From positions 1-32,917 of the forward strand of contig SXIR01000145.1 of the NCBI GenBank assembly GCA_005772765.1: a stretch of 32,917 nucleotides of DNA, written 5' to 3'. This document shows, in pieces, positions 21,560 to 26,548 of this stretch. This stretch comes from Actinomycetota bacterium. GTDB taxonomy: Bacteria; Actinomycetota; Acidimicrobiia; IMCC26256; PALSA-610. Below the pieces are notes generated by a model that ran no database searches, had not been told where the DNA came from, and saw nothing but the letters and a program-made list of their open reading frames with translations. Position 1 is the first letter of the stretch, and every line of letters begins with the position of its first letter. Position numbers and translations under genes: made by a program.

Positions 21560-22075
21560 TTGGGGGTGATCACCACGGAACGGATCGAACGCGTGCTCGA
21601 CCCCGGATACGCCGCGGATCTGGGCGGTCGCGACTCCGACACCCTGCGCACCATGAAGTCCGAATGTGCTGCGCTCGAGAACTCGGTCAGCTACGCCCGG
21701 CGTCTGGCGCAGGGTCGAATCGAAATCCTCGAAGCCGAACAGCTCCGTCGGGCCGAGGGCCGGCCGCTCAGCGACCTCATCGATCGGTTGCCGCAGATCC
21801 TCGGGGCTGACGCGGGACGGGCCGATGTCGCACACACGCGCCTGGCCGAACCCGAGACCGAGATCGTCGAACTGCATTGGGGGCAAGGTGAGGAGCGGCT
21901 CCTCGCCGACGACTCCCTCGCGAACCTGCCGACGCTGTCGGATCCCGATCTCGCGTCGAGCATCTCGGCGTTGCGTGACTTCGAACGCGAACTGTCGGTC
22001 TGTCGACGTTCGCTGCATTCGGTGATCGATGGAATCGAACACGAAATCGCCACTCGGGCCGCGGCCGGGAACTGA
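21560..22075 (+). CDS. RsiG family protein (putative c-di-GMP-responsive anti-sigma factor)
   Basis: Two helical copies of a motif close to E(X)3S(X)2R(X)3Q(X)3D: E40-S44-R47-Q51-E55 and E142-S146-R149-H153-D157. Start could be TTG 21560 or GTG 21566. Confidence 0.7.
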   Translation: MGVITTERIERVLDPGYAADLGGRDSDTLRTMKSECAALENSVSYARRLAQGRIEILEAEQLRRAEGRPLSDLIDRLPQILGADAGRADVAHTRLAEPETEIVELHWGQGEERLLADDSLANLPTLSDPDLASSISALRDFERELSVCRRSLHSVIDGIEHEIATRAAAGN

Positions 22076-22080
22076 TCGCC

Positions 22081-22497
22081 GTGCCGACGGGCCGCGCGGG
22101 CTCGATGCCCGGTGATCTCGAGTCTCGGCTCGCCGAACTAGGAACCTTCATCCGCGACCAGCGGCGCAACGCACGATTGTCGTTGCGCAAGCTGAGTGAA
22201 GCCGCCGGTATCTCGAATCCCTACCTGAGCCAGATCGAGCGCGGGCTGCGCAAGCCTTCGGCCGAAATTCTCCAGTCGATTGCCAAAGGGCTGCGCATCT
22301 CGGCCGAGACGCTGTACGAACGCGCCGGGCTCCTCGACGAACGCAGCGACGTGTTCGATCTGGTCGGTGAGATCTTGCGAGATCCGACGATCTCGGATCG
22401 TCAAAAGGACGCGCTGGTGTCCATCTATCGCTCGTTCCAGGCCGAAACCGCCGCTGCCGAACCACGCGCCGAGACCGAGGACACCACCGACCGGTAG
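22081..22497 (+). CDS. XRE family transcriptional regulator
   Basis: LSLRKLSEAAGISNPYLSQIERGLRKPSAEILQSIAKGLRISAETL helix-turn-helix. Confidence 0.87.
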   Translation: MPTGRAGSMPGDLESRLAELGTFIRDQRRNARLSLRKLSEAAGISNPYLSQIERGLRKPSAEILQSIAKGLRISAETLYERAGLLDERSDVFDLVGEILRDPTISDRQKDALVSIYRSFQAETAAAEPRAETEDTTDR

Positions 22498-22507
22498 CCT
22501 TGCTGTC

Positions 22508-23725
22508 GTGGTCCGGCGGGTCGCGGCGTTCAGCGTGCATACCTCTCCGCTCGCCCCTCCGGGCAGCGGTGACGGTGGCGGCATGAATGTCTACGTCGAT
22601 TCGCTCGCCCGGGCATTGGGCGAAGCCGGCGTCACCGTCGACGTGTTGGCGCGAGCCGACGATCGCAACTCCGGCATCGTCGAAGTGACCGACAGCTATC
22701 GCGTTGTGCACCTCGACGTCGGCCCGCGTCGCTCACTCCACCGCGGTGCGTGGACATCGCTCATCGACCCATACACCGAAGCGGCGCGCTCGTTCATCCG
22801 CGCGAACGGCGACTACGACGTCTTGCACGCGCACTACTGGTTGTCGGGCGCGATCGCGCACCGCCTCAAGCACGAGCTCGACCGGCCGCTGGTCTCGACG
22901 TTCCACACACTCGCGCTCGTGAAATCGGCGGCCGGCTTCTCCGACGACGACACCCGCGCGCAGATCGAACGCGACGTCGTTCGGTGTTCCGATCTCATGC
23001 TCGCGAACACGCGCGACGAAGCCGAACAACTCATCGGCCTGTACGAAGCAGACGCAACGCGCGTCGAGATCGTTCCACCTGGGGTCGACCATGTCGCGTT
23101 CTCACCCGTAGGTGATCGCAACATCGATCGCGCGGCACTCGGCGTCGAGGGACACAAGGTCGTGTTGTTCGCCGGCCGCATCCAACCGCTGAAAGGCGCC
23201 GACGTTGCGATCCGGCTCGTCGCGGCACTGAAAGATCCGCACGTACTGTTGTTGTTGGTCGGCGGTCCGAGCGGCATCGATGGCGAGCGCGAGCTGCGGC
23301 GGCTGCATGCGCTGGTCGATGAGACTGGCCTCGCCGACCAGGTGCGCTTCGTCGGTCCTCAGGAGCACAACGCGCTCGCGCGTTATTACCGAGCGGCCGA
23401 TGTCTGTGTCGTGCCCAGCCGGACCGAATCGTTCGGGCTCGTCGCGCTCGAGGCGCAGTCATGCGGCACGCCCGTGGTCGCTTCCGCGGTCGGCGGATTG
23501 CGTCTGGCGGTCGACGACCACCGCAGCGGTGTGCTCGTCGGTTGCTGCGACGCGAACAACTTCGTCGAACCGGTGCGGCGCATCCTCGACGACGCCGCCT
23601 ATCGCGAGGAGTTGGCAAGGGGTGCGGTCGCGCACGCGGCCACGTTCTCGTGGGCGATCGCCGCCGCGCGGCTGCGCCGGCACTACAGCGATCTGACGGC
23701 ACGCGAACCCGTGCGTTGCGCCTGA
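22508..23725 (+). CDS. mshA: MshA-like glycosyltransferase (D-inositol-3-phosphate glycosyltransferase type, GT4)
   Basis: VAAFSVHTSPLAPPGSGDGGGMNVYV start, FAGRIQPLKG, PSRTESFGLVALEAQSCGTPVVAS; GTG at 22508. Followed by ybjN-like as in mycobacteria. Confidence 0.78.
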   Translation: MVRRVAAFSVHTSPLAPPGSGDGGGMNVYVDSLARALGEAGVTVDVLARADDRNSGIVEVTDSYRVVHLDVGPRRSLHRGAWTSLIDPYTEAARSFIRANGDYDVLHAHYWLSGAIAHRLKHELDRPLVSTFHTLALVKSAAGFSDDDTRAQIERDVVRCSDLMLANTRDEAEQLIGLYEADATRVEIVPPGVDHVAFSPVGDRNIDRAALGVEGHKVVLFAGRIQPLKGADVAIRLVAALKDPHVLLLLVGGPSGIDGERELRRLHALVDETGLADQVRFVGPQEHNALARYYRAADVCVVPSRTESFGLVALEAQSCGTPVVASAVGGLRLAVDDHRSGVLVGCCDANNFVEPVRRILDDAAYREELARGAVAHAATFSWAIAAARLRRHYSDLTAREPVRCA

Positions 23726-23734
23726 GCGCACGCG

Positions 23735-24202
23735 ATGTCTGCCGACCAACCGATCACGTTCGATCACGGAGCCATGCTCGAGGCCCGAACGTTGCTCGAC
23801 GACCACCTCTTCGGCGACGTTGCCAACGAAGACTGGGTGCAGGCGGTCGAACACGACCCCGAGATCTGGCGTTGGTACGTCCGGTTCGGCTGTGATGGTC
23901 GCGATGCGGCGACGATCTACTTCGATCTGCATCAACGGTCGCTGCACTACGAGGTCTATTTCTTGCCCGATCCACCGGCGAACCATGAGGCGCTGTACCG
24001 GGCCGCGCTGCGGTGGAACCACGATGCCTACGGGGCCCGGTTCTCGATCGGAGCCGACGGCGAGTTGTACCTGACCGGCCGGGTGTTGCTCGAGCATCTC
24101 GATCGCGCCGAACTGGATCGGATCATTGGGGTGCTCTACACGCTGGTCGACCGATACTTCCCGGCCGCGGTGCGCCTCGCGTTCGGAACCTCAACCTCAT
24201 AA
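23735..24202 (+). CDS. YbjN domain-containing protein
   Basis: RWYVRFGCDGRDAATIYFDLHQRSLHYEVYFLPDPPANHEALYRAALRWN; mshA-ybjN adjacency. Confidence 0.78.
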   Translation: MSADQPITFDHGAMLEARTLLDDHLFGDVANEDWVQAVEHDPEIWRWYVRFGCDGRDAATIYFDLHQRSLHYEVYFLPDPPANHEALYRAALRWNHDAYGARFSIGADGELYLTGRVLLEHLDRAELDRIIGVLYTLVDRYFPAAVRLAFGTSTS

Positions 24203-24206
24203 GGTC

Positions 24207-24236
24207 TTGTCACACTCTGTCACATCTTGATATGGT
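24207..24236 (+). promoter_or_regulatory. Candidate sigma70-type promoter
   Basis: TTGTCA (24207-24212) - 18 bp - TATGGT (24231-24236), just after the ybjN-like stop. Confidence 0.45.
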
Positions 24237-24283
24237 GTTGGTGGTCGGTGATCTCCGCACACCGGCGGCGATCGGGCCGACCT

Positions 24284-24359
24284 CGACTCGGGGTGGCAAC
24301 GACGATGGTGGCGTTCGGGGAGAACCTCCGCCATCCGACTTGGCAACCACCCCGAGTCG
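24284..24359 (+). ncRNA. Candidate structured RNA: long nested hairpin between ybjN-like and proC
   Basis: Outer stem CGACTCGGGGTGG (24284-24296) / CCACCCCGAGTCG (24347-24359), perfect 13 bp; inner stem GATGGtGG..GTTC (24304-24316) / GAAC..CCgCCATC (24322-24335), loop GGGGA. RNA class unknown. Confidence 0.45.
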
Positions 24360-24473
24360 CCTCAACTCCGTGTACCGGCGGCGGGTGGCATCGGCGACAC
24401 TGGCGCCGTTCGTGGCACCTGCCCGAAGGTGAACGGGTCGGCGGCGCGCGACGCGGGTTCTAGTGTCGAATCC

Positions 24474-25271
24474 GTGCGAATCGCGTTGATCGGCGGCGGC
24501 AAGATGGGGCTGGCCCTCGTGAGTGGTTGGCTCGACCGGGGGTTCGATGCGGCCGACATCGTCGTCGCCGAGCCCGACGCCGATCGCCGCCGCGAGATCG
24601 AAGCTGCGCAGCCGGCGATCCACGTCGTTCCGGCGGCGGCGTGGGCAGTTCCCGACGCCGACGTGGTCGTGCTCGCGGTCAAACCCGGAGATGTTGCCGG
24701 AGCGCTCGAATCGGCGGGTGCCGCGCTCGGCGAGCGCGCGCTGATCGTGTCCATCGCGGCCGGCGTGACGACGACGACGATCGAGGCCGCGGCGCCGGGT
24801 CGCCCCGTCGTTCGGGCAATGCCGAATACGCCGGCCCTGGTCGGTCAGGGCGCAGCAGCTATCTCCGGTGGCGGCAGCGCGACGTCGGGCGACCTCGACA
24901 CCGCTGAACGCCTCTTACGTGCGGTCGGGTCGGTGGTTCGGGTCCCTGAACACCTCCTCGACGCGGTCACCGGGCTCTCGGGATCGGGACCCGCTTATGT
25001 CTTCTTGGTGGCCGAAGCCCTGATCGAAGCCGGGGTCCTGGCTGGCCTTCCACGCGACGTGAGCGCGGACCTGTCGATCCAGACCCTGCTCGGCGCCGCC
25101 ACCCTGCTGGCCGCAGAACGCGATCCCGAACGGCTCCGCGCGATGGTCACCTCACCCGGCGGTACGACCGCCGCGGGCCTCCACCAGCTCGAGCGGGCGG
25201 GTGTCCGGGCTGCGTTTCTCGATGCGATTGCCGCAGCGACGAATCGCTCGAAAGAACTCGGATCCATCTGA
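24474..25271 (+). CDS. proC: Pyrroline-5-carboxylate reductase
   Basis: RIALIGGGKMGLALVSGWL, VVLAVKP, RAMPNTPALVGQGA, GLSGSGPAYVFLVAEALIEAGV, TSPGGTTAAGLHQLE. Alternative GTG start at 24429. Confidence 0.92.
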   Translation: MRIALIGGGKMGLALVSGWLDRGFDAADIVVAEPDADRRREIEAAQPAIHVVPAAAWAVPDADVVVLAVKPGDVAGALESAGAALGERALIVSIAAGVTTTTIEAAAPGRPVVRAMPNTPALVGQGAAAISGGGSATSGDLDTAERLLRAVGSVVRVPEHLLDAVTGLSGSGPAYVFLVAEALIEAGVLAGLPRDVSADLSIQTLLGAATLLAAERDPERLRAMVTSPGGTTAAGLHQLERAGVRAAFLDAIAAATNRSKELGSI

Positions 25272-25391
25272 GCCGACGAGCGCAACCCGCCGTGCTTCAC
25301 TGTGACGCTCACCACCAACGTTCGCCTCGGTGGACAGCACGAACCTCCGCCCTCTACCCTGACACCCAGCGGTTGGAGTAGGGAGTCCCGC

Positions 25392-25586
25392 GTGGCCCAA
25401 GAGTTGAGCAAGTCGCGCTTCTTGACTGTGCAGGAGGTCGCTGACCTCATGCGCGTCTCGTCGATGACGGTGTATCGCCTGATCAAGGCCGGTGATCTGC
25501 CGGCCGTGCGCGTCGGGCGATCGTTCCGCGTCGCGGACCGCGATGTGGATCAGTACCTGGCGGATCGTTACACCCAAGCTGGGTGA
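25392..25586 (+). CDS. Excisionase/MerR-type helix-turn-helix DNA-binding protein
   Basis: RFLTVQEVADLMRVSSMTVYRLIKAGDLPAVRVGRSFRVADRDVDQYL; GTG 25392 with GGAGTAGGGAG upstream; proC neighbour as for Rv0500A. Confidence 0.87.
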   Translation: MAQELSKSRFLTVQEVADLMRVSSMTVYRLIKAGDLPAVRVGRSFRVADRDVDQYLADRYTQAG

Positions 25587-25678
25587 GCAGGCGCTCGCTC
25601 CCTGCCCACATCTCGATCGAGTCGTCCCGTCGCGTTGCGATCGCTGAGGCGCGGCTGCACTGATCTACGGTCGCACCC

Positions 25679-26548
25679 GTGGACAGCCCCACGTTCGTCT
25701 CGTTCCTTTCCGACTACGGCACTCGTGATGAGTTCGTCGGCGTCTGCAAAGCGATCATGTTGGAGCTGGCGCCGGCTGTGCGTTTCGTCGACGTCACCCA
25801 CGACGTCGATCCCTTCGACGTGCGCGGCGGCGCACTGACGTTGGTTCGTTCAATCCAGTACCTTCCCGCGGGCATCGTGCTCGCAGTCGTTGACCCTGGC
25901 GTCGGTACCGATCGTCGCGCCATCGCGGTCGAGGTCGAAAACGGACTGCTGGTCGGACCCGATAACGGCCTGCTCGCGCCGAGTGTCGCCATGCTCGGTG
26001 GCGCGTTGCGGGTGTTCGAGTTGGCGAACCTCGAGTACCAACTCCCCGCACCCGGTGGTTCGTTCGCGGGTCGCGACGTGATGGCTCCCGCCGTCGGCCA
26101 CTTGGCGGCCGGGCTCGCGATCGAAGAACTCGGACCCGAGATCGATCCCAACACGCTCGTTCCCGGTCTGTTGCCCTTGCCGAGCGAAGACGCGAACGGT
26201 CGGATCGATGGCGAAGTGCTGTGGATCGATCGATTCGGGAACGCGCAGCTCAACGTGGATCCCGACATGCTCGTCGCTCGCGGCGTCGGCCTGGGTGACG
26301 GCATCGAGGTGCACGTCGGCGACGAGATTCGACGGGCGCGTTGGGTGTCGACCTACGCCGACGCGCGACCGTCCGAACTCGTCGTGATCACCGATAGCTA
26401 CGGATTGTTGGCGTTGGCCATCGACCGGCAGAACGCGGCCGCCCAACTCGGAGCGCGGCCGGGAACCCGAGTCGCAATCATCCCGCCCGACACGCCCGGT
26501 GCGATGGCGCCGACCGAGTCACCGATCGATCTGGGGAGACGAACATGA
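25679..26548 (+). CDS. SAM hydrolase / SAM hydroxide adenosyltransferase (DUF62 family)
   Basis: FVSFLSDYGTRDEFVGVCKAIM, DVTHDVDPFDVRGGA, AVVDPGVGTDRRAIAV, VGPDNGLLAP; GTG start. Confidence 0.87.
   Translation: MDSPTFVSFLSDYGTRDEFVGVCKAIMLELAPAVRFVDVTHDVDPFDVRGGALTLVRSIQYLPAGIVLAVVDPGVGTDRRAIAVEVENGLLVGPDNGLLAPSVAMLGGALRVFELANLEYQLPAPGGSFAGRDVMAPAVGHLAAGLAIEELGPEIDPNTLVPGLLPLPSEDANGRIDGEVLWIDRFGNAQLNVDPDMLVARGVGLGDGIEVHVGDEIRRARWVSTYADARPSELVVITDSYGLLALAIDRQNAAAQLGARPGTRVAIIPPDTPGAMAPTESPIDLGRRT

Follow-up and report, generated by a model that had tools for sequence, protein, structure and literature searches.

A twin-motif RsiG with lineage-typical motif letters, very likely a c-di-GMP-armed anti-sigma factor, in an Acidimicrobiia-like actinobacterium

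The open reading frame at positions 21560-22075 of the window (here, the whole 32,917-nucleotide stretch of DNA that was analysed) encodes a twin-motif RsiG, one more ordinary representative of a switch that is already known. Homology, fold, motif geometry, the conservation of WhiG and of its contact residues, the co-occurrence of the two proteins and the GGDEF enzymes of the host genome all point, with a high degree of confidence, to an ordinary twin-motif rsiG that an Acidimicrobiia-like actinobacterium inherited vertically and the product of which would serve as the c-di-GMP-armed anti-sigma factor of WhiG. Measured against the preliminary description of this DNA, the value of the result is mainly corrective, in that the odd motif letters and the absent sigma neighbour are the norm of the lineage. 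The analysis also widens the known range of the RsiG-WhiG switch, from the three Acidimicrobiales genomes already published to the greater part of the class as sampled, with the two genes generally present or absent together; this lends support to the idea, put forward in the literature, that the switch is ancient. The repeated interchange of Asp and Glu at a guanine-reading position is mildly interesting and supplies natural variants with which the importance of individual contacts could be tested.

The reading frame (forward strand, 171 aa) was assigned by translation, by a Pfam profile scan and by phmmer. The family profile search proposed in the preliminary description gave a match to the Pfam family PF22802 (RsiG-like) in two stretches and above the curated cut-off (88 bits, E 3.3e-25, cut-off 27), and a single-sequence phmmer search of the PDB aligned residues 17-170 with Streptomyces venezuelae RsiG (6pfj_T, E 1.3e-11) and also found the single-motif RsiGs of Rubrobacter (E 0.003-0.007). 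The NCBIfam profiles searched with the protein contained no matching RsiG model. Possible starts are a TTG at 21560 and a GTG at 21566, and the frame is also open further upstream; residues are numbered here with the TTG at 21560 as residue 1 and, because the start codon is uncertain, the numbers are approximate and may shift by a few.

An AlphaFold model built from a 50-sequence alignment (mean pLDDT 88.9, the linker at about residues 80-110 being less certain) contains the expected two-helix coiled coil. DSSP assigned residues 26-66 to the long helix alpha1 (21635..21757, forward strand) and residues 128-169 to a long C-terminal helix (21941..22066, forward strand). In a Foldseek search of the PDB at E ≤ 0.001, only four matches were obtained, all of them RsiG chains of 6PFV and 6PFJ (probability 1.00, identity 32-34%, TM 0.61-0.69), and the antiparallel coiled-coil fold of 6PFJ was found in the model and in these top four matches. 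The profile match, the homology to 6pfj and the Foldseek result together bear out the initial assignment as an RsiG-type protein.

The closest known system is the S. venezuelae RsiG (6PFJ and 6PFV, deposited in the PDB as AmfC protein), a twin-motif, monomeric anti-sigma factor of WhiG. The two proteins share whole-length homology, the same two-helix coiled-coil fold, motifs in the same places and a WhiG ortholog in the genome; they differ in two motif residues (Glu in place of Asp as the last residue of motif 1, His in place of Gln in motif 2), the structural alignment gives an identity of about 34%, and the present host is not a Streptomyces. The RsiG of Rubrobacter radiotolerans (PDB 7LQ2-7LQ4) matches over the first helix (E 0.003), which bears a motif of the same type; however, this is its only motif and it acts as a homodimer, whereas the protein described here has both motifs in one chain.

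Translation of 21560-22075 on the forward strand reproduced the two c-di-GMP motifs at the positions and with the exact spacing first reported. Motif 1 consists of E40, S44, R47, Q51 and E55 (21677..21724, forward strand; terminal Glu, not Asp) and motif 2 of E142, S146, R149, H153 and D157 (21983..22030, forward strand; His, not Gln). The spacing of E(X)3S(X)2R(X)3[Q/H](X)3D is exact, with one copy on each long helix and four of the five exact letters in each; the Glu-for-Asp of motif 1 departs from the strict motif letters, although the replacement is a conservative one and shared by the whole family. When the residues of the protein were shuffled 100,000 times, 31 of the shuffles contained two separate 4-of-5 matches with the exact spacing; homology is much stronger evidence for an RsiG than the motif alone. 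The protein is very likely a c-di-GMP-armed anti-sigma factor.

The motif letters were compared in a class-wide sample of 69 RsiGs (14 from the host family, 28 from other members of the order and 27 from outside the order). Ser and Arg of both motifs are invariant (69/69). His occupies position 4 of motif 2 in 42/42 proteins of the host family and order; elsewhere the residue there is His, Phe, Tyr or Gln. Motif 1 ends (position 5) in Glu throughout the host family (14/14), in Glu (10/28), Asp (16/28) or Gly (2/28) in the other order members and in Asp in all 27 proteins outside the order. The Streptomyces letters ESRQD in both copies were found in 0/69, and the combination of the window protein (ESRQE/ESRHD) occurs in 19 of the 69. 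A second set of 80 rsiG loci from named genomes, partly overlapping with the 69, gave the same motif picture, with the motif 1 Gln position biased in this set because the search pattern contained that Gln. The 80 loci were gathered with a tight-alignment pattern, and the relatives are metagenome-assembled genomes (MAGs) titled Acidimicrobiia, Acidimicrobiales or Actinomycetota, which makes a member of the Acidimicrobiia the most likely host; a scan of the genome collection for RsiG relatives with the single protein returned no matches. The motifs had been called degenerate, a term that holds relative to the Streptomyces consensus and fails within the protein's own lineage, where both letters are typical.

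In the published structures, the terminal Asp and the Arg of the motif confer guanine specificity, the last residue reading the Watson-Crick face of guanine, and His was reported, for motif 1, as a suitable stacking substitute for Gln (PMC8325347). On the class-sample tree, which was computed without the two terminal motif columns, at least 7 changes between Glu and non-Glu are required at the end of motif 1. This repeated interchange suggests near-equivalence, and Asp and Glu would appear to be largely interchangeable at this position. The same data could be read as a lineage-specific variant, in which the Glu of motif 1 and the His of motif 2 alter the affinity for c-di-GMP or make the half-sites unequal, so that the switch answers to another signal level with WhiG still as its partner. 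The fixation of Glu in the family and its several changes on the tree favour such a variant, as do a few relatives that have G, A or H in place of the motif 2 Asp, mostly with Glu in motif 1; nevertheless, the conservative nature of the replacement, the apparent near-equivalence of the two acids and the published stacking ability of His argue against it, and we regard it as a tentative alternative. The further proposal that the half-sites have become functionally unequal in this Acidimicrobiia lineage, with the motif 1 Glu fixed in the family and recurring in the order, some relatives without the motif 2 Asp, and the switch retuned, perhaps to govern flagella or pili alongside a separate FliA-like sigma factor, draws on the same observations and is rather unlikely. 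As both substitutions are typical of the lineage and the His was already described as suitable for stacking, the claim of a divergent switch was not upheld.

The host genome (3.6 Mb, 80% complete) encodes a WhiG ortholog at G000:C224:17775-18560 that exceeds the cut-off of the NCBIfam model NF004935 (367.9 bits, cut-off 343) and shares 59% identity with the WhiG of S. venezuelae; downstream of it lie a gene for an M23 peptidase and then rpsB. In the solved complexes, c-di-GMP is contacted by residues K57, G61 and R62 of WhiG (PMC8325347), and their equivalents are kept in the C224 WhiG and in the WhiGs of the family (14/14), all 14 of the family genomes having the protein. The genome search for whiG and diguanylate cyclases that had been suggested thus found this WhiG and 19 GGDEF matches. 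Flagellar genes are located on contigs C5 and C101 and flagellin and flgK on C184, and Tad genes and several T2SSE-type ATPases (pilus/secretion superfamily) are also present.

No sigma-factor domain was detected among the part of the window's reading frames that was scanned, in agreement with the earlier remark that no whiG/fliA-like gene lies in the window. Likewise, tblastn of both sigma factors found a sigma gene beside rsiG in 0/80 loci, up to 6 kb on each side; since rsiG lacks a sigma neighbour in all 80 loci, the absent neighbour says nothing about the partner. It had been suggested that the sigma partner may differ, and the available candidate is a second FliA/WhiG-family sigma factor on C184, which exceeds the TIGR02479 cut-off and is encoded near flagellin and flgK. 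A divergent RsiG acting on another sigma factor such as this one could draw on that availability and on the lack of linkage of rsiG to any sigma gene. However, unlinked rsiG is the rule, WhiG is present in all 14 family genomes, and the C184 protein has Q/S/E at the K/G/R contacts of WhiG, making it a poorer candidate partner for RsiG; its identity to the S. venezuelae WhiG is 34%, as against 59% for the C224 protein. Since the same genome encodes a canonical WhiG in which the c-di-GMP contacts are conserved, the suggestion of a different partner was not supported, and we consider this reading improbable. As a separate observation, the genome has two flagellar-clade sigma factors, and the C184 protein is 354 aa long with a long Thr/Ala-rich N-terminus; its gene lies in a region (L153, G000:C184, 7890-12930) with flagellin, flgK and TadE/TadG-type genes.

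Twin-motif RsiG was previously reported in 3 of 4 Acidimicrobiales (PMC8325347). Among 296 genomes of the class, 175 encode both RsiG and WhiG and 102 neither, while RsiG occurs alone in 7 and WhiG alone in 12 (Fisher p ~1e-56, in a test that ignores phylogeny); some of the absences will reflect incomplete assemblies or weak matches. That rsiG is non-functional or decaying, with c-di-GMP binding lost, has next to no credibility and was rejected since the one substitution that each motif shows against the Streptomyces consensus is conserved across family and order, S and R being invariant, and the frame is moreover intact, codon bias is normal and most genomes retain RsiG and WhiG together.

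For the preferred reading, an anti-sigma factor of WhiG, we infer c-di-GMP binding, sequestration of the C224 WhiG and the regulon from the Streptomyces and Rubrobacter structures. RsiG would fold as an antiparallel two-helix coiled coil with a flexible linker between the helices, each helix giving one E-x3-S-x2-R-x3-[Q/H]-x3-[D/E] motif, and at high signal both motifs would clasp a c-di-GMP dimer. The armed protein would then bind the sigma2 and sigma4 domains of WhiG and hold it off RNA polymerase; as c-di-GMP falls, WhiG would be freed and transcribe its regulon. The affinity may differ from that of the known proteins because motif 1 ends in Glu at its guanine-reading position.

In Rubrobacter, the RsiG-WhiG switch controls type IV pili (PMC8325347). 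Strict patterns for WhiG-type promoters gave no sites in the host genome, and TAAA-N15-GCCGATAA, with at most 2 mismatches allowed, matched 34 times, as often as its reversed control (34). When short stretches upstream of flagellar, tad and rsiG genes were scanned, no WhiG-type sites emerged, and a single 3-mismatch site was found upstream of whiG. As the searches were no better than the control, neither flagella nor pili are claimed as the regulon.

The surroundings of rsiG are conserved in the order rsiG, XRE regulator, mshA, ybjN, proC-like gene and SAM hydroxide adenosyltransferase gene (window 21560-26548; loci L156-L235), and among the 80 related loci mshA is near rsiG in 75, ybjN in 63 and the XRE gene in 57. 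The XRE-type HTH regulator gene (22081..22497, forward strand; HTH_3, E 6.7e-13) is followed by an mshA-like glycosyltransferase gene (22517..23725, forward strand, start approximate; TIGR03449 MshA, 384 bits, short of the 462.5 required for an equivalog). We know of no functional link between rsiG and these conserved neighbours. The XRE protein is up to 88% identical across loci and is more conserved than RsiG. The idea that it is a BldD-like c-di-GMP receptor was dropped, as its PDB matches were of the ClgR, DdrO and SinR types and included no BldD. A weak, sub-threshold match to HTH_Cmi2_C was also noted in the profile scan.

Several individual relatives deserve mention. The terminal Asp of motif 2 is replaced by Gly, Ala or His in L041, L054, L063, L066, L166, L176, L183 and L189, all of which except L063 carry Glu at the end of motif 1; these are natural variants without one guanine-reading Asp. 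In L206 (JACPCJ010000008.1), Ser ends motif 1 and the aligned RsiG frame breaks around motif 2 (gaps), through a frameshift, an assembly error or a decayed copy. Finally, L172, L177, L230, L231 and L235 come from MAG records titled 'Bifidobacterium breve' with rsiG loci of the Acidimicrobiia type, and these titles look mislabelled.
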